64,000 nt of DNA from Hymenobacter sp. BT559 (GTDB taxonomy: Bacteria > Bacteroidota > Bacteroidia > Cytophagales > Hymenobacteraceae). Position numbers and translations under genes: made by a program. Below are positions 6,027-46,069 of this stretch, piece by piece; positions within the stretch are counted from its first letter, which is position 1; each line of letters opens with the position of its first letter. The DNA lies in contig NZ_JAGETY010000010.1 of the NCBI RefSeq assembly GCF_017571525.1, forward strand, positions 62,001 through 126,000. Direction: 5' to 3'. Below the pieces are notes generated by a model. The model was not told the DNA's origin. It saw only the letters and a list, made by a program, of their open reading frames with translations, and searched no databases.

Positions 6027-9000
6027 ATGAAAATTTTACCCCTTTTGCGGCCGCATCGTCCTCGTGTAGGGCTGGCAACTGCCGTAGGGCTAGCCGTGGC
6101 ATTGCTGCCAGGCGCTACGCTGTCGGTGCAGGCAGCCAGCCTGAGTTTACAACAAGCGCCATCCCAAGCGGGCGTACCCATTACGGGCCGCATCGTGGAT
6201 GAAAAGGGCGAGCCCCTGCCCGGTGCCAACGTCATCGTCAAAGGCACGGCCAACGGCACGGCTACCAACGTCGATGGCCAGTACACCATCAATGCGCCGG
6301 CCGGTGCTACACTGGTGTTCTCCTTCGTGGGCTACCCGGCGCAGGAAGTGCCGCTCAACGGCCGCACCACGGTCGATGTCAAATTTGCTTCTCCGCAGTC
6401 CCAGACCCTCAACGACGTGGTGGTAGTGGGCTACGGCACGCAGGCCAAGCGTGAGGTAACCGGTGCCATTGCCCAGGTGAAGGGCGATGACCTGGTGAAC
6501 CAGGCTTCGCAAAACCCCATCAGCTCGATTCAGGGCAAGGTGGCGGGCGTGCAGATTACCAACTCCGGCACGCCGGGCGGCGCCCCGACGATTACCATCC
6601 GGGGCACGGGCTCCATCAGCGGGGCTAGCCCCCTCTACGTGGTCGATGGCACCATGCTGCCTGCCGGGGCCGACCTGAGCTTTCTGAACCAGGCCGATAT
6701 TGCCTCGCTCGAAGTGTTGAAAGACGCGGCCAGCGCCTCCATCTACGGGGTGCAGGCCGCCAACGGCGTCGTTATCGTGACCACCAAGCGCGGGCTGGCC
6801 GGCCGGCCCCGCATCAACTACAACGGCTTTGTGGGGGTGCAAACCACCACCAACAAGGTTAAGATGGCCAACGGAGAGCAGTACACCACGCTCTACAACG
6901 AGAAGAACATTCTTCAGGGTAACCCGGCTTCCAGCAACCTGCCAACCAGCGGCTACGCCTCGACCGACTGGTACAACCAGATTTCGCGCAATGCCCTCAC
7001 GCAAAACCACCAGCTGAGTGTATCGGGCGGCAGCGAGAAGATTTCGTACTCGTTCAGCGGTTCCTATCTCAAGCAGCAGGGCCTCATCAAGACCAACGAC
7101 TACGAGCGTATCACGGCCCGGCTCCAGACAGATTTCAGCCTCACCGACCACATCAAGGTGGGCTATAATGCGCTGCTGGCCAATACGACGTCGAACGACA
7201 TTCCCGGCAATATTTTCCAGCAGGCCTACGTGGCCCCGGCGGTGCTGCCGGTGTACCAGGCCAATGGCAACTACGGCGACCCTAGCCGCATTGGCCAGGG
7301 TGGCCTGGGCAGCTTCGCCAACCCGCAGGCGTCGCTCGACTATTACCACCAGCAAACCCGCGGGCAGTCGCTGATTGCCAACGCCTTTGCCTCGGTCAAC
7401 TTCCTGAAGTATTTCACCGTGCGCAGCAGCGTGGGCGTTAACTACCTCAGCAGCAAGTATTACAACTACCAGCCCAAGGATTCGCTCACGGCAACGCAAT
7501 ACACGCGCACCAGCCTGCTCACCCGTGGCAACCAGCTCACCAGCCAGCTGACCTGGGAAAATACGCTCACCTACGACCGGGCGTTTGGTGACCACCACCT
7601 CACGGTGCTGGCCGGTAGCACGGCCCTGAACTACCAGGTTGATAACGTGGTAGGCTCTATCAACGGCGTAACGGCCGTTAACAGCGACAACTACTACTTC
7701 AGCCTGGGCACGCCCGGCACGGCTACGCTCTCCAACCCCGGCCTCGATACCTACCGGGTGTTCTCGCTCTTTGGCCGGGTCAACTACGCCTACAAGGGCC
7801 GCTACCTGCTCACGGCCAGCATCCGGCGCGACGGGGCTAGCCAGTTTTCGACGCGCTACGGCAACTTCCCCTCGGTGGGCGCGGGCTGGGTTATCTCCGA
7901 CGAGTCGTTTATGGAAGGCAACCCGGTCTTCTCGTTCCTGAAATTGCGCGGCAGCTACGGCGTGCTGGGTAATAACCGGGTAGCCAACAACCGCACGATT
8001 TCGACGGTGACCATTGCCCCGGGCTACGGTGCGCCCATCGGTACTTCCTTCCAGACCGGGGGCAACCTGGTAACCCAAACGGCCCCCACGCTGAGCTGGG
8101 AAACCGCCCACGAGGCCGATGCCGGCCTCGAAATGCGCTTTCTCGACAACCGCCTCTCGGCCGAGCTGGACTACTACAACCGCCGCACCATCGACGCCGT
8201 GTTTCCGGTGCCGGTGCTCGCCGGGCCGGGCTATGCCAACAACACGGGCTACTACGCCAACAATGCCAACTTCCAGAACCAGGGCGTAGAAGCCGCCCTG
8301 CGCTGGAACTCGCAGGGTACCGGCGATTTCTCGTATAACATCGGCATAACTGGGGCTTACAACCAGAACAAAGTGCTGGCCACGGCCGGCGGGGCGCCGC
8401 TGTCGGCGGGTGCGCTGCCGGTGGCCGGCTACCTGTCGACCATCACGCAGGTGGGTGCGCCGCTAGGGGCCTTCTACGGCTACCAGGTGGCCGGGGTGTT
8501 TCAGAGCGATGCCGAGGCGGCCAAGTCGGCCCAGCCCGGTGCCCACGCCGGCGACCTGCGCTACCAGGACGTGAACGGCGACGGCGTAATCGACAACCGC
8601 GACTACGTAATGCTCGGCAACCCCAACCCGCGCCTCACCTATGGCCTGAATACCTACTTCCGCTACAAGGGCTTCGACCTGCAGGTTGATTTTCAGGGCG
8701 TAGCGGGTGTAGAGTTGCTCAATGCGCTGCGCGAAGTGCGCTACGGCAACGAAAACTACACCCAGGACTTCTACAACAACCGCTGGCATGGGGCCGGCAC
8801 CTCGAATAGCACGCCCTCGGCCAACCTGAGTGGCCGTAACCTCGACGTGAGCTCGTATTACATTGAAAGCGGGGATTATATCCGCCTGCGCAACGTTCAG
8901 CTAGGGTACAATCTCTCGAAGACGCTGGCTAATAACCTGCGGGTGCAGGGTGTGCGCATCTACGTGAACGCGCAGAACCCCGTGACCTGGACCAAATACA

Positions 9001-9107
9001 AGGGCTTCACGCCCGAAGTAGGCGGCACGCCCACCAACGCCGGCATCGACCTGAACGTGTACCCGATTGCGGCCACCTACAACTTCGGCATCAACGTTAA
9101 TTTCTAA
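6027..9107 (+). CDS. SusC-like TonB-dependent outer-membrane oligosaccharide transporter
   Basis: A 1026-residue protein starting at the ATG at 6027, which gives a normal signal peptide; an upstream in-frame start at 5970 adds an unlikely extension. After the leader comes a carboxypeptidase-regulatory-like domain (ITGRIVDEKGEPLPGANV, ~50-130), then the plug (VVVGYGTQAKREVTGA, SPLYVVDG, SIYGVQAANGVVIVTTK), then the 22-strand barrel. This is the standard SusC (SusC/RagA) layout and length. It should import oligosaccharides released at the cell surface, using TonB energy, together with the SusD lid encoded 19 bases downstream. Context predicts beta-1,2-glucan fragments as cargo. Confidence 0.95.
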   Translation: MKILPLLRPHRPRVGLATAVGLAVALLPGATLSVQAASLSLQQAPSQAGVPITGRIVDEKGEPLPGANVIVKGTANGTATNVDGQYTINAPAGATLVFSFVGYPAQEVPLNGRTTVDVKFASPQSQTLNDVVVVGYGTQAKREVTGAIAQVKGDDLVNQASQNPISSIQGKVAGVQITNSGTPGGAPTITIRGTGSISGASPLYVVDGTMLPAGADLSFLNQADIASLEVLKDAASASIYGVQAANGVVIVTTKRGLAGRPRINYNGFVGVQTTTNKVKMANGEQYTTLYNEKNILQGNPASSNLPTSGYASTDWYNQISRNALTQNHQLSVSGGSEKISYSFSGSYLKQQGLIKTNDYERITARLQTDFSLTDHIKVGYNALLANTTSNDIPGNIFQQAYVAPAVLPVYQANGNYGDPSRIGQGGLGSFANPQASLDYYHQQTRGQSLIANAFASVNFLKYFTVRSSVGVNYLSSKYYNYQPKDSLTATQYTRTSLLTRGNQLTSQLTWENTLTYDRAFGDHHLTVLAGSTALNYQVDNVVGSINGVTAVNSDNYYFSLGTPGTATLSNPGLDTYRVFSLFGRVNYAYKGRYLLTASIRRDGASQFSTRYGNFPSVGAGWVISDESFMEGNPVFSFLKLRGSYGVLGNNRVANNRTISTVTIAPGYGAPIGTSFQTGGNLVTQTAPTLSWETAHEADAGLEMRFLDNRLSAELDYYNRRTIDAVFPVPVLAGPGYANNTGYYANNANFQNQGVEAALRWNSQGTGDFSYNIGITGAYNQNKVLATAGGAPLSAGALPVAGYLSTITQVGAPLGAFYGYQVAGVFQSDAEAAKSAQPGAHAGDLRYQDVNGDGVIDNRDYVMLGNPNPRLTYGLNTYFRYKGFDLQVDFQGVAGVELLNALREVRYGNENYTQDFYNNRWHGAGTSNSTPSANLSGRNLDVSSYYIESGDYIRLRNVQLGYNLSKTLANNLRVQGVRIYVNAQNPVTWTKYKGFTPEVGGTPTNAGIDLNVYPIAATYNFGINVNF

Positions 9108-9126
9108 GCGCTACGCTATCCCACCC

Positions 9127-10593
9127 ATGAAAAATTACCCGTTTCTTAATCCGCTCCGGGGCCGGGCGGTGCCAGTGCTGGCGGCGGCTGTGCTGGCGCT
9201 AGCCTCCTCGTGCACCAAGTACCTCGACGTGGCGCCGCTCGCCCAGCCGGTGGCCACTTCCTTCTTCCAGAATGCCAACGATGCGGCCGTGGCCAGTATC
9301 TCGACCTACGGCAAGCTGCGCGAGTGGAACCTGGTGGCCTTCAACTGGCTGGCCGTGACCACGCTCACGTCGGACGACGCCGAGAAGGGCAGCGTATCGG
9401 GCGATGCCGAGTTTCTGAACAACTTCACGTTCTTTCGGGTAACGCCCACCGACGGCCCGCTGGAAGGCTTCTGGACCGGGCAGTACCAGGAAATTCTGCT
9501 CTGCAACCAGGTCATTCAGAACGTGCCCGGCATCAACATGGATGCCAACCTCAAGGCCCGCTACGTGGCCGAGGCGCAGTTTTTGCGCGCGCTCATGTAC
9601 TTCAACCTGGTGCGGGCGTTTGGCGATGTGCCGCTCTACACCAAGCCGCCCGTCACGCCCGACGAGCTGAACCTGGCTCGTACGCCCAAAGACCAAGTGT
9701 ATGCTTTCCTGGTGAGCGAGCTGACGGCCGCCGCGGCCATCCTGCCCGCCACTTACACCAGCGCCGACGTGGGCCGCGCCACCAAGGGCGCTGCGCTCGC
9801 CCTGCTGTCTAAGGTGCAGCTATACCAGAAAAACTGGGCCGCCGCGCTCGCTGCTTCTGACCAGGTAATTGGGCTAGGGTACTCGCTGGCCCCCGACTAC
9901 TACAAGATGTTCCGCATCGCCGGTGAAAACGGGCCGGAGTCGATTTTTGAAATTCAGGCTTCGGCCGTGACGGGTAACTGCGACGCCTCCAACTCGCAGT
10001 GGGCCCAGGTACAGGGCGTGCGCAACCAGTTTGGCTGGGGCTTCTTTATTCCGTCGGCTAGCCTCGATGCGGCCTTCGAAGCCGGCGACAAGCGCAAAAT
10101 GGCCACCATCCTTTACCCCGGCGAAACCACCCCGGAGGGCGACGTGATAACGACCAGCGCGCCCAACCCGCGCTACAACGCCAAGGCCTACGTGCCCAAT
10201 GCCGTGCCCTACACCTGCAACTACGGCGACTCGCAAAACCTGCGCGTGCTGCGTCTGGGTGAGGTATTGCTCATCAACGCCGAAGCCGCCAACGAGCTAG
10301 GCCAGACGGCCAAAGCCCTCACCGATGTGAACCTGGTGCGCGTGCGCGCCGGGCTAGCCCCCTTGGCCAGTGGCCTATCGCAGGATGCCATGCGCCAGGC
10401 CATCTGGAAAGAGCGCCGCGTGGAGCTGGCGCTGGAGTACGGCGACCGCTACTTTGACCTGGTGCGCCAGGGCCGGGCAGCGCAGGTGCTGGCCTCCAAG
10501 GGCTTCGTGGCGGGTAAAAACGAAGTGCTGCCCATTCCGCTCAACGAGATTACCCTGAGCGGGGGCAAGCTGACCCAGAACCCCGGCTACTAG
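9127..10593 (+). CDS. SusD/RagB-like surface glycan-binding lipoprotein
   Basis: A 488-residue protein. The ATG at 9127 gives a lipoprotein signal with lipobox LASSC, followed by TKYLDVAPL, typical of SusD. The TPR-rich SusD fold shows in EAQFLRALMYFNLVRAFGDVPL and, near the C-terminus, in IWKERRVELALEYGDRYFDLVRQG (quoted here as family hallmarks: AQFLRALMYFNL and RRVELALEYGDRYFDL). It forms the lid over the SusC barrel and captures glycan at the surface. It starts 19 bases after susC, so the two are co-transcribed, and it ends at a strong terminator (10608-10644). Confidence 0.93.
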   Translation: MKNYPFLNPLRGRAVPVLAAAVLALASSCTKYLDVAPLAQPVATSFFQNANDAAVASISTYGKLREWNLVAFNWLAVTTLTSDDAEKGSVSGDAEFLNNFTFFRVTPTDGPLEGFWTGQYQEILLCNQVIQNVPGINMDANLKARYVAEAQFLRALMYFNLVRAFGDVPLYTKPPVTPDELNLARTPKDQVYAFLVSELTAAAAILPATYTSADVGRATKGAALALLSKVQLYQKNWAAALAASDQVIGLGYSLAPDYYKMFRIAGENGPESIFEIQASAVTGNCDASNSQWAQVQGVRNQFGWGFFIPSASLDAAFEAGDKRKMATILYPGETTPEGDVITTSAPNPRYNAKAYVPNAVPYTCNYGDSQNLRVLRLGEVLLINAEAANELGQTAKALTDVNLVRVRAGLAPLASGLSQDAMRQAIWKERRVELALEYGDRYFDLVRQGRAAQVLASKGFVAGKNEVLPIPLNEITLSGGKLTQNPGY

Positions 10594-10607
10594 CCCATTG
10601 CCCACGT

Positions 10608-10644
10608 AAAAGCCTGGGACTCGGCCCGCGAGTCCCAGGCTTTT
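10608..10644 (+). terminator. Strong hairpin terminator after susD, just before the second GH144 gene
   Basis: A perfect 16-bp stem (10608-10623 with 10629-10644) encloses a 5-nt GCCCG loop and ends in TTTT. It begins 15 bases after the susD stop and ends 19 bases before the next ATG. It could lower expression of the downstream enzyme relative to SusCD, or stabilise the susCD mRNA. Confidence 0.8.
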
Positions 10645-10663
10645 GCATTCCCACCCATTCCTA

Positions 10664-12310
10664 ATGTTCATCGCTCGATTTTTGCGCCTGGCCGGGCTAG
10701 GGGCCAGCTTGCTGCTGGCCGCCTGCCACAAGTCTGTCGACTCCCCCGCGCCGGTAACGCCCACCCCGACGCCGACGCCCACTGCGCCCACCGTGGCCGA
10801 CCCCACCGCCGACCGTGCCCTGCTCGACAAAGTGCAGCAAGCCACGCTAGCCTACTTCTGGGACTTTGGGCACCCGGCCAGCGGCATGGCCCGCGAGCGC
10901 AGCACCTCGGGCGATGTGGTGACGACTGGCGGCACGGGCTTTGGGGTGCAGGCGCTGGTGGTGGGGGCTAGCCGCGGCTGGCTGACCCGCGACCAGGCCG
11001 TGGCCCGCACCCAGAAAATCTGCGATTTCCTCAAGCAGGCCAACCGTTTTCACGGGGCCTGGCCGCACTGGCTCAATGGCAGCAGCGGCGCGGTCATCCC
11101 CTTCAGTGCGCAGGATAATGGTGGCGACCTGGTCGAGACGTCTTACCTACTGAACGGCCTGCTGGTGGCTCGCGCCTACTACGATGGCAGTGGTGCCGCC
11201 GAAACGGCGTTGCGCCAGAGCATTACGCAGCTCTGGGAAGGTGTGGAGTGGGACTGGTACGCCAGCCGCGGCGATGGCCTGCTGTACTGGCACTGGAGCC
11301 CGCAGTACCAGTGGGCCATGAATATGCCCATCCGGGGCTGGAACGAAGCGCTGATAACCTACGTGCTGGCGCTGGGGTCGCCCACGCACCCCATTGCGCC
11401 GGCCGTGTACAAAGCCACCTGGATAAGCAACGGCTTTGGCACGCCGACGGGCTACGAGGGCTACCAACTGCCGCTAGGCCCGGCCTACGGCGGGCCGCTG
11501 TTTTTTGCGCATTACTCGTTTCTGAGCCTCGACCCGCGCCAGATGCAGGACCAGTATGCCAACTACTGGCTGCAGAACGTGACTCATACGCTTATCAACC
11601 GCAGCTACTGCCTCTACACCGCCCCCAAGGCCTACGGCTACTACACCAGCCTGTGGGGCCTCACCGCTTCCGACGACCCCAGCGGCTATAAGGCGCACCA
11701 GCCAACCGACGATAACGGCACCGTATCGCCCACGGCGGCCCTGTCGTCGTTTCCCTACACGCCCTTCTACGCCATGCAGGCTTTGCGCAACTACTATGGC
11801 GCGCTCGGGGCGCAGCTGACAGGCACCTATGGCCCGCGCGACGGCTACAACCCCTCGCGCAACTGGGTGGGGCAGGATTTTCTGGCCATTGACCAGGGTC
11901 CGATTATCGACATGATTGAGAACTACCGCAGTGGCCTGCTGTGGCAGCTAGGGGCTAAAATCCCGGAGCTGCAAGCCGGCCTGCGGCAAGCCGGCATCGC
12001 GCCCCCGGCCTACGCCACAGGCTTTGTGCTCGATGTGCCCGAGGCCAAAAGCGGCCGATACGACATGCTCAAGCACCCCGACCGCAACAGCTACCAGCTC
12101 GACGTGACCCTAGCCACGGCCGGCAACTACACCCTGACGCTCGAAACGCCCACGGGTGCCGTTGTGGAAACCCCTTGGAGCAACCAGGCGCAGGCTGCGG
12201 GGCTAGCCACTGTGGGGCTCGGTGCCGCCGCGCCCACCGGCGACTACGTGGTGCGCCTAGTCGGTCCTGCTGGCTCGGTTCCGGTTACGCTGCCAGTTAC
12301 ACTGCGCTAA
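10664..12310 (+). CDS. GH144-type lipoprotein (second endo-beta-1,2-glucanase)
   Basis: A 548-residue protein. The ATG at 10664 gives a lipoprotein signal with lipobox LLAAC and then a Pro/Thr linker (PTPTPTPTAPT). The catalytic body (~45-450) parallels the paralogue at 4378-5733: FGHPASGMARERS, VVTTGGTGFG, WEGVEWDW, LYWHWSP, HYSFLSLDP, GLTASDD, VSPTAALSSFPY, AIDQGPI. A C-terminal beta-rich extension of about 100 residues (NYTLTLETPTGAVV) is absent from the paralogue and may be a small sandwich or binding module. Lipidation and its place after SusCD suggest a surface endo-enzyme making the first cuts. It ends 26 bases before a convergent gene. Confidence 0.85.
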   Translation: MFIARFLRLAGLGASLLLAACHKSVDSPAPVTPTPTPTPTAPTVADPTADRALLDKVQQATLAYFWDFGHPASGMARERSTSGDVVTTGGTGFGVQALVVGASRGWLTRDQAVARTQKICDFLKQANRFHGAWPHWLNGSSGAVIPFSAQDNGGDLVETSYLLNGLLVARAYYDGSGAAETALRQSITQLWEGVEWDWYASRGDGLLYWHWSPQYQWAMNMPIRGWNEALITYVLALGSPTHPIAPAVYKATWISNGFGTPTGYEGYQLPLGPAYGGPLFFAHYSFLSLDPRQMQDQYANYWLQNVTHTLINRSYCLYTAPKAYGYYTSLWGLTASDDPSGYKAHQPTDDNGTVSPTAALSSFPYTPFYAMQALRNYYGALGAQLTGTYGPRDGYNPSRNWVGQDFLAIDQGPIIDMIENYRSGLLWQLGAKIPELQAGLRQAGIAPPAYATGFVLDVPEAKSGRYDMLKHPDRNSYQLDVTLATAGNYTLTLETPTGAVVETPWSNQAQAAGLATVGLGAAAPTGDYVVRLVGPAGSVPVTLPVTLR

Positions 12311-40511: not shown

Positions 40512-40879
40512 TGACAAATGGTGTAGATTTGAAAAAAGCGGTACGAATATACAGGCATTAAGCTCCGCACTGAGGTTGAGCTAGCGCCGGCGCAAGAGGC
40601 GAAGTAGCTGCCCGCCTATAGTTGCTGGCTAGCCCTGCCTGGGGCGGGCAGAAAAGCAGAGGGCCTTCCGACAGCCAGAAATTGCGTAGCTCAGCCACAT
40701 CAAAAACCACGAGCAGGCTGCTGGGTAGCAGCTCGGCTAGCCACCAATTATTTGGTTGAAAAACAGTGAATAGAATGAGCGTCGAAAGATTTCAGTAATT
40801 TTTTGTAAGTTGACGGCAACCATTCGACGCGGTGCCCCGAGTTCCTTGGCAGCTAGTAGTCACTTTTTAGCCTGTGGTT
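40512..40879. promoter_or_regulatory. 368-base divergent region upstream of the ECF sigma gene
   Basis: No gene is visible. It separates the leftward gene 39612-40511 from the sigma-factor operon. Near the sigma gene an 8-bp inverted pair, GCGTCGAA at 40779-40786 and TTCGACGC at 40823-40830, frames an AT-rich core containing TAATTTTTTG. This could be an ECF-type promoter or operator region. No good match to the housekeeping TTTG/TAnnTTTG pair was found. Confidence 0.35.
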
Positions 40880-41476
40880 ATGCCTACTCCTACTCCTGCC
40901 CAGCTTAGCGACCTGCTTGCCGGCTGCCGGGCATTGGACCGGGCTAGCCAGCGCGCGCTCTACCAGCAGTACTACGGCTTTGGCTTCGCCATTTGCCAGC
41001 GCTACCTCACCGACCGCGATGCGGCGCTGGAAGCCGTGAACGACGGCTTTCTCAAGATTTTTCAGGAGCTGCCGCGCTTCGATGCCACCCGCTACGCCGA
41101 CCTGGCAGGCTCGCTGCGCGGCTGGATGCACCGCATTATGGTGCGCACGGCCATCGACCACTTTCGGGCCGAGCACCGGCATTCGCTGCACGCCGGCCTC
41201 GATGAGGTGGGGGAGGCGCACGCCGAGGCCAGCGCCGCCACACCGCTCGATGCCCTGTCGTTTGACGAGCTGCTGCGCCTGGTGGGGCAGCTCTCGCCGG
41301 CCTGCCGGGCGGTGTTCAACCTCTACGCCATCGACGGCTACACGCACGAGGAAATAGCCGAGCAGCTCAGCATCTCGGTAGGTACGTCCAAGTCTAACCT
41401 GTTCAAAGCCAGAGCCTCTCTCAAACAATTTCTTAAGTTAGAAAAGCATCATGCCTACGCCCACTATGTCAGATGA
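40880..41476 (+). CDS. ECF-type RNA polymerase sigma factor
   Basis: A 198-residue protein from the ATG at 40880. Region 2 (~20-100) includes QYYGFGFAICQRYLTDRDAALE and, with a -10-binding segment, MHRIMVRTAIDHFRAEHR. Region 4 (~140-190) has LSPACRAVFNLYAIDGYTHEEIAEQL and the helix-turn-helix SVGTSKSNLFKARASLK. ECF sigmas are held by a partner and released by envelope signals. Its 3' end overlaps the next gene by 26 bases (11 if the next gene starts at its second ATG), so the pair is translationally coupled. Confidence 0.9.
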   Translation: MPTPTPAQLSDLLAGCRALDRASQRALYQQYYGFGFAICQRYLTDRDAALEAVNDGFLKIFQELPRFDATRYADLAGSLRGWMHRIMVRTAIDHFRAEHRHSLHAGLDEVGEAHAEASAATPLDALSFDELLRLVGQLSPACRAVFNLYAIDGYTHEEIAEQLSISVGTSKSNLFKARASLKQFLKLEKHHAYAHYVR

Positions 41477-43097
41477 AGAGCTAGACTCGGTCTTTCGGCG
41501 CGTGGCAAATGAGTACTCGCCCGAAGTGCCCCCGCCCGGCGCCTGGGAGCGCCTGGACAGTCAGTTGGCCACCACTGCTACCACCCAGCAGCTGCGTGGC
41601 AAGGTGCTGCGTGCCTTCGGAGCCGAGGTAGCCACCCTAGCCGTATTGGTATGGCTGGGCTGCCAGCTACTGCCGGAGAATCAGCTCGCCCGGTTGCCGG
41701 AAGCCAAATTACCCGCTGCCACTACCCGGCTCGCGGCCACCGAAGCGAGCCGCCCCCGGCTCGCCGCTTCAACTGTATCCGCTAGCCCCGCTACCACGTC
41801 GGTGGGCGGTAGCTCAGCTGCAGTAGCCAGGCCTGATAAGCTATTGGCCAGCGTTTCTACCACTGCCGCGCAAGCCAGCGTGAGCCTGGCTGCCGAGGCT
41901 ACGCCCGAGCCGACGGCGCTGGTTAGCGCTACCGCCAAGCGAGTGGGGCAGCGCCGACTAGCCGCTGGCCTGGCAACCGCCCCGGCTAGCCCTGCCGGGC
42001 CAATGGTGGCAACAGGTGATAAGGCCAGTCGCACATTATCAACTGCTGCAGCGCTTGGCAAAGCCCGGCGTGCTGCGCCAGCGGTAGCAGTTTTTGCTGC
42101 GGCTAGCCCTACTGCGTCGGCTACTCCGAGTGCTGCTGTTGCCAGCGCTTCTTTAGCAGCTGCTGAAGCGCCTGGTGGGGCCAAGCATCGTCAGCACGCG
42201 AAGGCCGCGCGCAACCAGGCGCTGCCAGGTGCTGTGCCTGGCGGCGGGCCTGCTCGCCAGGCGCGCCGCGCGACTGGGCTTGTGGCAAGTAGCTATTTGC
42301 CTGCTCCTAACACTAAAAAGACAGCGAAGAGCCAAGCAGGCGAGGCCGAGAGCCTGCCAGTGGCCAGGCTAGCCGAAGCCTCAATGGGCAGCCGCGCGGC
42401 GTGGCTATCGCTGGCCACTTACCCGCTGCCCGACTCGCTAGGGGGGGTGGCGCGCCTGCTGCCGGCCGACACGACGAAGGAGCAGAAGCCTCCGGCGCTG
42501 CGGCCGCCTTACCGGCTGGTGCTGGGGCTGCTGGGCGCGCCAGCCTTTAGCGCGGTGCGCACGCCCCAAACGGCCCAATTGGGTGGCGACTACGGCCTCA
42601 CGCTCGAATACCTGCTCACGCCGCGTCTGCGGGTGCGGGCCGGGCTCATCAGCAGCCGCAAGCGCTACTACGCGGCTAGCTCCGACTACGAGGCGCCCGC
42701 GAACTGGCAGTGGTTTCCGGGCAATTATGAGCTGGATGCCAACTGCCGCATCACCGAGATTCCGCTTGATGTGCGCTTCGACGTGCTGCGCCGACCCACT
42801 TACGCCGTGTTTACCAGCGTGGGAATTAACTCGCTGCTGATGCGCAACGAGCAATACAGCTACGACTGGACCATGAACGGCCAGACCTTCACCAAAACGG
42901 CGCAGGTAGTCAATGGCTCCAATCACTTCCTGGGCGTGCTCAACCTGTCGGTGGGTGTCGAGCGGCCCATCGGCGGGCGTTGGTCGGCTCAGGTCGAGCC
43001 TTTCTGGCAGCTTCCGCTCGGCGGGGTAGGGGCCGGCAAGGTGCACCTGAGCAGCGCTGGCGCGGCGTTCTCCCTCAAATTTGGCCTGATACGGTAG
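41451..43097 (+). CDS. Putative anti-sigma head / outer-membrane beta-barrel fusion
   Basis: A 548-residue protein; ATGs at 41451 or 41466. Residues ~6-50 (DEELDSVFRRVANEYSPEV, then PPPGAWERLDSQL) carry the short acidic 'P-x-x-AW-x-x-L' N-terminus seen in proteins encoded after ECF sigmas in Bacteroidota. One hydrophobic helix follows (~55-74, FGAEVATLAVLVWLGCQLL). A ~230-residue Ala/Ser/Thr/Pro-rich, low-complexity linker leads to an outer-membrane barrel (~345-548; YRLVLGLLGAP, YGLTLEYLLTPRLRVRAGLI, LGVLNLSVGVERPIGGRWS). The layout could span both membranes and hold the sigma factor. That function is inference. Confidence 0.7.
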   Translation: MPTPTMSDEELDSVFRRVANEYSPEVPPPGAWERLDSQLATTATTQQLRGKVLRAFGAEVATLAVLVWLGCQLLPENQLARLPEAKLPAATTRLAATEASRPRLAASTVSASPATTSVGGSSAAVARPDKLLASVSTTAAQASVSLAAEATPEPTALVSATAKRVGQRRLAAGLATAPASPAGPMVATGDKASRTLSTAAALGKARRAAPAVAVFAAASPTASATPSAAVASASLAAAEAPGGAKHRQHAKAARNQALPGAVPGGGPARQARRATGLVASSYLPAPNTKKTAKSQAGEAESLPVARLAEASMGSRAAWLSLATYPLPDSLGGVARLLPADTTKEQKPPALRPPYRLVLGLLGAPAFSAVRTPQTAQLGGDYGLTLEYLLTPRLRVRAGLISSRKRYYAASSDYEAPANWQWFPGNYELDANCRITEIPLDVRFDVLRRPTYAVFTSVGINSLLMRNEQYSYDWTMNGQTFTKTAQVVNGSNHFLGVLNLSVGVERPIGGRWSAQVEPFWQLPLGGVGAGKVHLSSAGAAFSLKFGLIR

Positions 43098-43152
43098 CCG
43101 GACGCGGCTGCTAGGGCGCGGGCAGGCGCCTTCTCTACTGCCCACTCGCGGG

Positions 43153-43168
43153 CCCGGTGCGCACCGGG
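43153..43168. promoter_or_regulatory. Perfect 16-base palindrome upstream of the PF03640 gene
   Basis: CCCGGTGCGCACCGGG reads the same on both strands with no spacer. It lies 55 bases after the barrel gene stop and 82 bases before the next ATG. It could be an operator or a small hairpin. It lies inside the sigma-operon spacer. Confidence 0.4.
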
Positions 43169-43249
43169 TTCGGCACCTGGCTGCGCCTCTGCGGGGGCTA
43201 GCGGCCGACACTTACTTCTCTTTTCATCAACGCTTTACCAAACATCGTC

Positions 43250-44122
43250 ATGCTTGGACACTCTCTCTATGCCCGGCCGGTTCGCTGGCTGGCTGGTGCC
43301 ACCGCGCTCGTGGTGGGCACATTGCTAGGCCTTGGTGCCTGCCAAAAAAAGGACGATAGCACCACCCCGGCCCCGGCGGCGCCCACGCCCACCATTCAGC
43401 TCATGCCCAATGCCGTGGTGGGGCCGCACCTCGCCGACTCGGTGGGCAACACGGTCTATTTATTCTCCCGCGACCTGGCGGGCACCAACAACTGCACCGG
43501 CGGCTGCGCCAGCGTGTGGCCCATCTTCTACACCTCGCACCTGGTGGTAGGTAATGGGCTGGATGCGAAAGACTTTGCTACCATTACTACGAGCACCGGC
43601 CAGCGCCAGACCACCTACAAAGGCTGGCCCATGTACTACTACGCCCCGGCCGATGCCAGCGGGCAGTTTGTGCGCGAAAAGCCCGGCCAGGTAACCGGCG
43701 ACAACGTGGGCGGCGTGTGGTACACCATGCGCCCCGACTACAGCCTGCTGCTGGCCCGCACCAGCGTCACGAACAAGACGACCAACTTAGCTGCAACTAA
43801 GACGTTCCTGATTGATAGCCAAGGTCGTACGCTCTACACCTTCGCCAAAGACCAGACCAGCCCCAGCACCCAGGCTACCAACTGCACCGGGGGGTGCGCC
43901 ACCGTGTGGCCCGTGTATGGCGGGGCGCCCGCCGTGCTGCCTTCGGGCCTGAAAAGCAGTGACTTCGGTACCCTGGCCCGCACCGACGGGACCAATGGCT
44001 ACCCTAGCCAGCAAACGACTTACAAGGGCCTGCCGCTCTACTACTACGCCCCCGATGGCGGCACCCGCAATAAGGTGGAGGGCGATGGCGTGGGCAACGT
44101 GTGGTCGGTGGCCGCGCCGTGA
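43250..44122 (+). CDS. Two-repeat 'secreted repeat' (PF03640, COG4315) lipoprotein
   Basis: A 290-residue lipoprotein (lipobox GLGAC, ~Cys31) with two PF03640-like repeats (~50-165 and ~175-290). Each has a strand pair (NTVYLFSRD / RTLYTFAKD), the paired-Cys phrase NCTGGCAxVWP, a TTYKGxPxYYYAPD segment and a closing GD-x-GVW/GNVW. PF03640 proteins are often found near cytochromes and electron-transfer genes, but their function is unproven. The two Cys of each repeat could form disulfides. It is the third gene of the sigma-led block. Confidence 0.85.
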   Translation: MLGHSLYARPVRWLAGATALVVGTLLGLGACQKKDDSTTPAPAAPTPTIQLMPNAVVGPHLADSVGNTVYLFSRDLAGTNNCTGGCASVWPIFYTSHLVVGNGLDAKDFATITTSTGQRQTTYKGWPMYYYAPADASGQFVREKPGQVTGDNVGGVWYTMRPDYSLLLARTSVTNKTTNLAATKTFLIDSQGRTLYTFAKDQTSPSTQATNCTGGCATVWPVYGGAPAVLPSGLKSSDFGTLARTDGTNGYPSQQTTYKGLPLYYYAPDGGTRNKVEGDGVGNVWSVAAP

Positions 44123-44198
44123 GCAGCCGGGCCGGCCTAGCCCGCGCCCGGCTTCGGCTGGCCGCGGGCAATCTCTTTCATTTTAACGCATCAAGTAT

Positions 44199-44573
44199 AT
44201 GGTCATCAAGCTACTGACCCTGGCCAGCGCCGCGCTGCTGCTCGGGGCTTGCGCCTCGCAAAATGGCGAAGACCTGCTGGCTAGCGGGGGCGTGCCCACT
44301 CCGGCCTGCGACACCTCGCACGTCACGTATGCCGGCACGGTGGCGCCTATCCTGCAGCAATGCAGCGGCTGCCACGGCGGTAGTCAGCCCTCGGCCGGCT
44401 TTGCCGTGGGCAGCTATGCCCAGGTAAGCACCAAGGCCGCTAATGGCCAGCTGCTCGGCACCCTCAACCACGACGCCGGCTACTCGCCCATGCCCAAGGG
44501 CGGGGCCAAGCTCTCCGATTGCGACCTCGCCAAGCTGCGCCAGTGGGTGGCGGCCGGCGCGCCCAACAATTAA
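44199..44573 (+). CDS. Mono-haem c-type cytochrome lipoprotein
   Basis: A 124-residue protein: lipobox LLLGAC (Cys18), then one haem-binding CSGCH (Cys55-x-x-Cys58-His59) and a likely axial Met98 in YSPMPKGG. The C-terminal helix LAKLRQWVAAGAPNN is typical of small class-I/YHS-like cytochromes that end multi-haem or oxidase modules. It would carry electrons at a membrane surface in the periplasm or outside. It lies 76 bases after the PF03640 gene and 10 bases before the YceI gene. Confidence 0.9.
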   Translation: MVIKLLTLASAALLLGACASQNGEDLLASGGVPTPACDTSHVTYAGTVAPILQQCSGCHGGSQPSAGFAVGSYAQVSTKAANGQLLGTLNHDAGYSPMPKGGAKLSDCDLAKLRQWVAAGAPNN

Positions 44574-44583
44574 CCTCTTTGCC

Positions 44584-45150
44584 ATGCAACAGCTACAGCT
44601 TGTATGGGTGGTACTGCTGGGGTGGCTGGCTGCCGCCCCAGCCCAGTCGCCCACCCGTTTTTTTACCCGTACGGGCACCATCCGCTTTTTCTCGGCTACG
44701 CCGGTCGAAGACATTGCTGCTACCAACCAGCGGGTGGCGGCGGCCGTGGATGTGACCACCGGCCAGCTGGCTTTCACGGTGCCCATGCAGGAGTTTCAGT
44801 TTCCGAAAAAGCTGATGCAGACCCACTTCAACGAAAACTACGTGGAGTCGGAGAAGTACCCGAAGGCCTTGTTTGCGGGGCAGTTGGTGGGCTTTCAAGC
44901 CGCAGCCCTTGACCAAGGCGGGCCACAGCCGGCTGTGGCCGAGGGCGACCTCACCATTCACGGCGTGAAGCGGCACGTGCGGGTGCCCGGCACGCTCGAA
45001 AAACAAGGCAACCGCCTGCTGGTCAACGCCAAGTTTGCGGTCGAAACGGCCGATTACAACATTGAGATTCCGCTGCTGGTGCGCGGCCACATCGCCAAAA
45101 CCGTGGACGTGACCGTGGCCCTGGCCTGCGACCCGCTGCCGCAGCCCTAA
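44584..45150 (+). CDS. YceI-family lipid-binding-like protein
   Basis: A 188-residue protein from the ATG at 44584, which opens into a signal peptide (MQQLQLVWVVLLGWLAAAPAQ). The YceI lipocalin-like fold shows in GTIRFFSATPVEDI, AFTVPMQEFQFPKKLMQTHFNENY, YPKALFAGQL, GDLTIHGVKRHVRVPG and the closing strands. YceI proteins hold isoprenoids or amides in a hydrophobic cavity in the periplasm. Its 10-base gap after the cytochrome gene and 16-base gap before the DUF5777 gene imply one operon. Confidence 0.9.
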   Translation: MQQLQLVWVVLLGWLAAAPAQSPTRFFTRTGTIRFFSATPVEDIAATNQRVAAAVDVTTGQLAFTVPMQEFQFPKKLMQTHFNENYVESEKYPKALFAGQLVGFQAAALDQGGPQPAVAEGDLTIHGVKRHVRVPGTLEKQGNRLLVNAKFAVETADYNIEIPLLVRGHIAKTVDVTVALACDPLPQP

Positions 45151-45166
45151 TCCTTTCTGCTCTCTT

Positions 45167-46069
45167 ATGAAAAGAATTTTTACCCTTGCGCGGCTGGCCC
45201 TGGGGCTGGCCGCTGTGCTCGTGCCGGGTCTAGCCCGCGCCCAGGACTTAATGCAGCAACTCAACAAGTTGTCGGCCGACAGTCTGCGGCTCAGCCTCGT
45301 GCAGGCCACCTTCAAAGGCACGCGCGTCATCAACGGGCAGTCGATAGAGACGCCGGGCGCGGGCACGCTGGTGTTTCTGATTTCGCACCGCTTTGGCGCG
45401 CTCAATAGCGGGGCCTACAACTTCTTCGGCCTCGACCAGGCCACTATTCGGCTAGGGCTCGAATACGGCATTACCGACCGGCTAGCTGTGGGCGTGGGCC
45501 GCAGCTCGATGGAAAAGACCTTCGACGGCTTTGCCAAGTACCGGCTGCTGCGCCAAAGCACCGGCGCCGGGGCCATGCCCCTATCGGTGACGCTGCTGGC
45601 CACCACAGCCCTCACCTCGCTGGAGTTTCAGCCGCAGTCTGAGCGCACGGGCGTTTCGCGCCTCACCTACACCTACCAGGCGCTGCTGGCCCGCAAGTTC
45701 AGCCCCAGCCTTTCGGTGCAGCTCATGCCTACGCTCGTGCACCGCAACTACGTTGACTTGCGCCGCGACCAGAACAATGTGTATGCCGTGGGCGCGGCCG
45801 CCCGCCAGAAGCTCACCAAGCGCTTTGCCCTTACCGGCGAATACTACTACCTGCTGCCCGGCGCCACCGCCGACAATTTTCGCAACTCGCTGGCCCTGGG
45901 TTTCGACATCGAAACCGGCGGCCACGTCTTTCAGCTGCACGTCACCAACTCGCCCGGCATGATTGAGAAGTTCTTCATTCCCCAAACCACGGGCAACTTC
46001 TTCAAGGGCGATATCTTTTTTGGCTTCAACATCTCACGCGCCTTCCAGCTCGGCGGCCGCCGGCCCTAA
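45167..46069 (+). CDS. DUF5777-family outer-membrane beta-barrel
   Basis: A 300-residue protein with a signal peptide (to ~25, GLARAQ) and alternating hydrophobic strands through to the C-terminus (YNFFGLDQATIRLGLEYGI, RLAVGVGRSSMEKTFDGFAK, HVFQLHVTNSPGMIEKFF, FFGFNISRAFQLG). These phrases are characteristic of DUF5777 barrels. It is the last gene of the sigma-led block and probably provides the outer-membrane partner of the cytochrome/YceI proteins. Its specific role is unknown. Confidence 0.87.
   Translation: MKRIFTLARLALGLAAVLVPGLARAQDLMQQLNKLSADSLRLSLVQATFKGTRVINGQSIETPGAGTLVFLISHRFGALNSGAYNFFGLDQATIRLGLEYGITDRLAVGVGRSSMEKTFDGFAKYRLLRQSTGAGAMPLSVTLLATTALTSLEFQPQSERTGVSRLTYTYQALLARKFSPSLSVQLMPTLVHRNYVDLRRDQNNVYAVGAAARQKLTKRFALTGEYYYLLPGATADNFRNSLALGFDIETGGHVFQLHVTNSPGMIEKFFIPQTTGNFFKGDIFFGFNISRAFQLGGRRP

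Follow-up and report, generated by a model that had tools for sequence, protein, structure and literature searches.

Six genes at the locus

The window, a 64,000-nucleotide stretch of the 5.1-Mb draft genome of Hymenobacter sp. BT559 (G000:C1:62001-126000), holds at 40880-46069 six genes that begin with an extracytoplasmic function (ECF) sigma factor and end with an outer-membrane barrel of the DUF5777 family. Comparison with other genomes suggests that they represent a real, conserved and apparently undescribed redox module, which in some lineages lies behind a switch resembling the dual membrane-spanning anti-sigma (Dma) factors; the activity of the module is something that we infer. A sequence-only reading of the window had named the six genes and their order, and open reading frames, coordinates and Pfam scans confirmed that all are present, in that order and on the + strand. 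The features are as follows:

40815-40842, + strand: candidate ECF promoter of the -35/-10 type, GGCAACC-N16-CGAGT (sequence pattern; a looser form is conserved in relatives)
40880-41476, + strand: ECF sigma factor, Das-like (Pfam Sigma70_r2, r4_2 and ECF above cut-off; PF08281 58 bits, PF04542 42 bits)
41451-43097, + strand: Dma-like putative anti-sigma factor, 548 amino acids (hydropathy, composition, alignment of 16 relatives)
43250-44122, + strand: PF03640 lipoprotein (Pfam 112 bits against a cut-off of 24.4, in four stretches; alignment, acid count)
44199-44573, + strand: probable monohaem c-type cytochrome lipoprotein (one CxxCH motif, CSGCH; a lipobox; a sub-threshold PF13442 match of 21.8 bits against the 27-bit Pfam cut-off)
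44584-45150, + strand: YceI lipocalin-type protein, predicted periplasmic (PF04264 57.6 bits, above cut-off)
45167-46069, + strand: DUF5777 outer-membrane beta-barrel (PF19089 316 bits against a cut-off of 23.1, a full-length family member)

The sigma and anti-sigma-like genes overlap by 26 bases (a GTG start at 40874 is an alternative for the former), and the gaps further downstream measure 152, 76, 10 and 16 bases, the first preceding the PF03640 gene and the second the cytochrome gene. A consensus scan for promoters and terminators, whose sites were not in excess of shuffles, found no terminator-like site in the + strand gaps of the set; both + strand terminator-like sites fall within the anti-sigma-like gene, and there are five sites overall against a shuffle mean of 6.3. 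By their arrangement, the six genes look like one operon. The left neighbour gene points away, and on the right a short unlabelled gene is followed by a pectinesterase gene. Hairpins folded in the two long gaps were unconvincing (z -1.8, with 7 of 200 shuffles as good, and z -1.1, with 25 of 200), and Rfam at gathering scores and ARAGORN gave no match in the window.

A three-gene core conserved in Bacteroidota

A survey of 296 Bacteroidota genomes found DUF5777 in 115, and none of 14 control genomes has it. Besides the window, we studied 196 DUF5777 loci: 16 from relatives, 100 chosen by hand from the 148 places of the survey, and 80 on named contigs, the last being the best 80 among the matches listed and skewed towards relatives of the window. 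Some of the 196 loci are closely related, and there is at least one duplicate, L016 and L131 apparently being a single record. Gene calling simply took the longest frame, and our own profiles were cut at E 1e-4. Neighbours were clustered without labels, taking at most six same-strand genes around DUF5777, separated by no more than 350 bases; clusters were identified by Pfam scans of one or a few representatives, with small clusters not all identified.

In these directons, YceI is present at 163 of the 196 loci and a monohaem cytochrome at 157. Further neighbours are tRNA_anti-like OB-fold proteins (66), ECF sigma factors (39), anti-sigma-like proteins (28 + 2) and PF03640 proteins (15), and those of redox type comprise Rieske proteins (15), cupredoxins (7), DOMON-like proteins (6; the cluster representative has a Pfam score of 24.2, below the cut-off of 32.7), NrfD with Fe-S and cytochrome proteins (6) and dihaem cytochromes (4). 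The exact six-gene order recurs in five further loci (L013, L017, L125, L126 and L134; three Hymenobacter, two from same-genus genomes).

That the genes belong together, as first proposed, is supported by this comparison: 8 of 12 same-genus genomes have DUF5777, and each of the 8 keeps its gene adjacent to those for the cytochrome and YceI. When checked for scattering in close relatives, the core thus stays together, whereas the sigma and anti-sigma-like genes (5 of the 8) and PF03640 (2 of the 8) are patchy. The conserved core of the phylum module is only the cytochrome, YceI and DUF5777.

The genome that contains the window holds a second cytochrome-YceI-DUF5777 set (L015, G000:C29:164741-183740, at about 8971-11016), with no match to sigma, the anti-sigma-like protein or PF03640 observed nearby. 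A small OB-fold protein with a hydrophobic N-terminus (PF12869, tRNA_anti-like) often accompanies the module as an additional component, at L009:7296-7718 and 65 other loci.

An apparently exchangeable electron carrier

The main new point of the comparison is that the carrier, judged by family membership and gene position, is exchangeable, being a cytochrome, a Rieske protein or a cupredoxin. Counts of YceI and carriers by profile were made within 4.5 kb of DUF5777 and on its strand. Rieske [2Fe-2S] proteins occupy the cytochrome position in 15 loci, 14 of which have no cytochrome in that range, L026 being the only Rieske locus that has both. Among 141 untruncated YceI loci, 117 have a cytochrome only, 12 a Rieske protein only, 1 both and 11 neither (Fisher p = 2e-10, kinship ignored). 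Parsimony requires five or more changes of carrier on a tree of 197 DUF5777 proteins built with FastTree, whose output warns of long branches. The cupredoxins (plastocyanin-type) form a cluster of seven loci, three of them without a cytochrome (L100, L106 and L114) and four alongside one; this membership was used instead of the profile count (19 loci), which was dropped because the profile also catches secretion tails.

Since three unrelated one-electron proteins fill one slot, electron transfer can be argued to be their shared job. The redox theme of the sequence-only reading is therefore supported by comparison, and its "redox or lipid-handling" is narrowed towards redox, with lipid handling less favoured, because Rieske proteins and cupredoxins take the place of the cytochrome.

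Beside DUF5777, the cupredoxin L042:6276-6851 and the DOMON-like protein L058:9149-9904 bear type 9 secretion tails, and these two proteins are therefore probably sent to the surface.

A Dma-like regulator and a candidate promoter

The anti-sigma-like protein gave no Pfam or NCBIfam match at E 0.01. Hydropathy and an alignment of 16 relatives divide it into a conserved N-terminal stretch of ~45 residues, one transmembrane helix at 56-74, a poorly aligning tether at ~80-340 with 62% Ala, Ser, Thr, Pro and Val (disordered as judged by composition only) and a conserved C-terminal domain of ~200 residues (~340-548), which we read from sequence, with no Pfam match, as a candidate outer-membrane barrel. 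Hydropathy over 19 residues peaks in the segment beginning at residue 56; the corresponding segment begins between 47 and 122 in 33 of 34 relatives (the protein start having been called too early for some), and the exception, L156, is a cut sequence.

Dma proteins and the ECF21 sigma factors paired with them (Das) come from Bacteroides thetaiotaomicron, and PMC13088901 gives their layout as an anti-sigma domain, a transmembrane helix, a disordered tether and a beta-barrel. The window protein fits this class by layout, having a conserved N-terminal stretch, the single helix, the long tether, the conserved C-terminal domain and the overlapping ECF sigma gene; we call it Dma-like, as the likeness is one of layout. 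According to the same source, Dma1 and Dma2 act on vesicles and Dma2 also on glycan loci, whereas the window pair sits with redox genes. The protein had been described as an anti-sigma-like barrel: its layout now has a published counterpart, with the barrel itself read from the conserved C-terminal region only. The layout would also suit a regulator that reports the state of the outer membrane, as had been suggested.

A Dma-like profile run over the 296 genomes returned 30 strong places (at least 200 bits). DUF5777 is found within 5 kb of 20 of them, compared with ~0.14 expected, and PF03640 is near 5. Among the ten places away from DUF5777, L244 adjoins a cytochrome gene, L246 adjoins a Rieske gene and L239 faces a PF03640 gene, so that the Dma-like link is to redox genes and not to DUF5777 alone; six of the ten have none of Rieske, cytochrome, PF03640 or YceI directly adjoining. 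Presence of a Dma-like gene switches at least 12 times on the tree, by gain or loss. At L240:4259-9294, another of the ten, the order is PF03640, sigma, Dma-like, Rieske, a 226-residue protein and YceI, without DUF5777; the 226-residue protein has no Pfam match and shows, by eye, several hydrophobic stretches with histidines; a b561-like role for it would be a guess.

The candidate promoter was followed in its looser form, G[CT]AACC, 15-18 bases and [CT]G[TA][AGC]. This stands upstream of the sigma gene in 27 of 33 loci that have both sigma and Dma-like genes (the window included, L017 dropped since its sigma gene is missing from the gene list), against 1.8% for single-base shuffles. The six misses comprise two with the element inside the called start, two with GGCAACC lacking a fitting second part, one with a weaker form and one with none. 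Its frequency does not exceed chance ahead of inner genes (2 of 136), nor in modules lacking sigma (6 of 367). The element also stands at four of nine sigma genes beside Dma-like genes distant from DUF5777, and therefore belongs to the sigma/Dma-like pair, not to the module. As a pattern, it fits one autoregulated promoter for the operon, and what favours the sigma factor driving the downstream genes is this conserved candidate promoter together with the linkage.

The strict form has one exact match in the window and four in the whole genome, against 11 for a reversed-pattern control, and a regulon beyond the operon was rejected on this count. One of the four strict matches precedes a different ECF sigma-like gene (L208:1500-2692, G000:C29:11590), which may reflect a shared promoter type, cross-talk or chance.

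The PF03640 lipoprotein is an optional part

Pfam gives four units in the PF03640 protein, which had been taken as two repeats, and these can be read as two halves of two units each. In the alignment, a C-x3-C pair is conserved in the first half and is lost from the second half of the flavobacterial members. A role as a metal or redox protein was not upheld, the cysteine pair being half-kept and the model being without a solved fold match: by sequence we found no solved relative, and the model (predicted local distance difference test score, pLDDT, 77; ten sequences) gave no clear match to a solved fold. Against the SCO0930 family lipoprotein NF040526 the window protein scores 142.9 bits, below the NCBIfam cut-off of 275.

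The mature start of the window protein, C-QKKDD, contains K-(D/E)2, the export signal of Capnocytophaga surface lipoproteins (PMC5080379), and for this reason the protein is probably surface-exposed. At least two acids at positions +2 to +6 of the lipoprotein start occur in 13 of 15 PF03640 proteins versus 47 of 150 other lipobox-like genes in the loci (p = 4e-5); the same acidic start is found in 104 of 200 cytochromes and 3 of 13 Rieske proteins.

Nine sampled genomes have both PF03640 and DUF5777, and in six of them the two lie within 5 kb of each other. DUF5777 is absent from 17 of the 26 genomes with PF03640, 14 of these in one family, so that PF03640 also has a life of its own; within the module it is an optional part. 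In one genome without DUF5777, a PF03640 protein lies near a Haem_bd/cytochrome P460 fusion (L251:5968-8561), another redox neighbour of the family.

The DUF5777 barrel and YceI

We know of no function for the DUF5777 (PF19089) family, and no open-access paper was found that names it. Among the matches listed, the DUF5777 protein of the window comes closest to Hymenobacter proteins, reaching 85% in the best segment with one from Hymenobacter sp. BT559. The AlphaFold2 model is a confident barrel (pLDDT 90.8), and the nearest solved folds are KdgM, FapF, NanC and COG4313 channels, at Z 16-18 and 9-13% identity over the aligned parts, with FadL-type channels also among the matches. On this model, the matches say outer-membrane barrel and no more, a common fold not showing a common function; the KdgM/NanC porins and FapF/COG4313 channels resemble DUF5777 in barrel fold only. 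The DUF5777 protein of the window contains no CxxCH, haem protein and barrel being separate genes (44199-44573 and 45167-46069). For YceI, a profile of eight linked proteins has its best solved-structure matches in 5ixh, which is BcnA, and 1y0g, the YceI of E. coli; isoprenoids are present in most YceI structures (5ixh identity and ligands from PMC9113575).

A proposed outer-membrane redox module and its rivals

The Gram-negative outer membrane has no energy source of its own, and both its protection and the passage of electrons through it are poorly understood. We favour, in the full mechanism at somewhat better than even odds, an autoregulated operon whose products make up a small one-electron redox module in the outer membrane. 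A change would be sensed by the Dma-like protein at its outer-membrane end, upon which its cytoplasmic end would release the sigma factor, and the freed sigma factor would then transcribe the entire operon, starting at the GGCAACC promoter. The cytochrome, anchored by lipid, or elsewhere a Rieske protein or cupredoxin, would exchange electrons one at a time with a YceI-bound ligand, an isoprenoid quinone or something similar. The DUF5777 barrel would be the outer-membrane partner of carrier and YceI, and the PF03640 protein an optional surface-exposed accessory.

A published counterpart is in Burkholderia, where lipid peroxidation is kept down by BcnA, a YceI lipocalin, together with LcoA, a cytochrome b561; the authors suggest that BcnA holds a quinone which LcoA returns to the reduced state (PMC9113575). 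Both systems co-encode a YceI lipocalin with an electron-transfer protein, and BcnA is the closest solved YceI. The module described here differs in its lipid-anchored cytochrome c, Rieske protein or cupredoxin, in its outer-membrane barrel and in its phylum. No cytochrome b561 gene was found among the ten window proteins scanned, and the module is therefore not a member of the BcnA/LcoA system. The best reading, by analogy, is local control of the Das/Dma type over a YceI-based module that may work like BcnA/LcoA with other partners. Its most likely purpose would be to keep a YceI-bound antioxidant reduced and so to quench lipid radicals of the outer membrane, as proposed for BcnA/LcoA, a suggestion we make tentatively and would expect to fail rather than hold. 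We are just as tentative about the wider proposal of an undescribed Bacteroidota redox machine, composed of YceI, DUF5777 and an interchangeable carrier, that may act on lipid-borne or surface partners and in some lineages be made on demand via a membrane-spanning sensor and its own sigma factor.

Several results weigh against the redox module as we propose it, the missing b561 gene among them. YceI was not found in 32 of the 196 DUF5777 loci; 11 of the 164 YceI loci have no recognised carrier (three of these at a contig end), and 7 of the 196 loci have neither. The DUF5777 barrel itself lacks a redox centre and most resembles ordinary channels in fold. Strict matches to the promoter are not in excess across the genome, and by profile the sigma factor is present in just 40 of the 196 loci, which places the switch outside the core. 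A comparison with COX1, meant to show a link to oxygen, had no power and was set aside: 285 of the 296 genomes have COX1, and DUF5777 occurs in none of the 11 without a COX1 match.

Surface electron exchange is the main rival, and the data do not decide between it and radical quenching, although we think it unlikely. Here the barrel and carriers would conduct electrons through the outer membrane, outwards to an external partner or inwards from one, as a light version of a porin-cytochrome conduit. Porin-cytochrome conduits and Cyc2 pair a cytochrome with an outer-membrane barrel, and in Cyc2-like proteins the haem domain is fused to the barrel; the module differs in its one haem, separate genes, lipocalin and swappable carriers. 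The export-signal-like acidic starts of PF03640 proteins (13 of 15 versus 47 of 150) and of about half the cytochromes (104 of 200) would suit this explanation, as would the secretion tails on the L042 cupredoxin and L058 DOMON-like protein and the NrfD and Fe-S electron-transfer subunits encoded in some DUF5777 loci. However, the window has a single haem, a small barrel and no fused or multihaem cytochrome, Rieske carriers seldom have the acidic start (3 of 13), and the NrfD loci form a separate DUF5777 branch without YceI.

Transport of a lipid or small molecule, with DUF5777 as channel, YceI ferrying a hydrophobic substrate and the redox protein oxidising or reducing that substrate, seems to us improbable. 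The fold matches to KdgM, NanC, COG4313 and FadL-type channels and the isoprenoids in most YceI structures (PMC9113575) point its way, but three unrelated one-electron carriers in one slot suit electron supply better than a single substrate, and no frequent substrate enzyme appeared among the identified neighbour clusters, small clusters not all being identified.

Slightly less probable again is that the genes are neighbours only, the sigma/Dma-like pair regulating other things such as vesicle formation and the redox genes being separately controlled: the sigma factor in just 40 of 196 loci, the roles of Dma1 and Dma2 on vesicles and of Dma2 on glycan loci (PMC13088901), the 152- and 76-base gaps before the PF03640 and cytochrome genes and the promoter-like element at four of nine distant pairs would allow it, but 20 of 30 Dma-like places lie within 5 kb of DUF5777, redox genes adjoin some Dma-like genes without nearby DUF5777, and the Dma-like state has been gained or lost at least 12 times on the tree.

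Among the open-access papers listed, we found none on a YceI/cytochrome module in Bacteroidota or on PF03640, so that a description we have not seen is possible. The redox module that we favour is a concrete, testable gene set, in which DUF5777 mostly stands with YceI and a swappable carrier, a membrane-spanning switch being added in some lineages. Dma proteins would thereby gain a defined local target, and DUF5777 and PF03640 a first role.

DUF5777 sets of other composition

Two further arrangements combine DUF5777 with haem proteins in the absence of YceI. In the NrfD-type branch (L111:6486-11564; also L034, L074, L078, L080 and L082), DUF5777 is accompanied by a cytochrome-like lipoprotein, a 4Fe-4S protein and NrfD, which is perhaps another electron-transfer complex; in L111 there are also a second cytochrome and a small protein whose start contains RR. 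At L054, L057, L081 and L083, DUF5777 stands with a protein of ~350 residues containing two CxxCH motifs and with small cytochromes.

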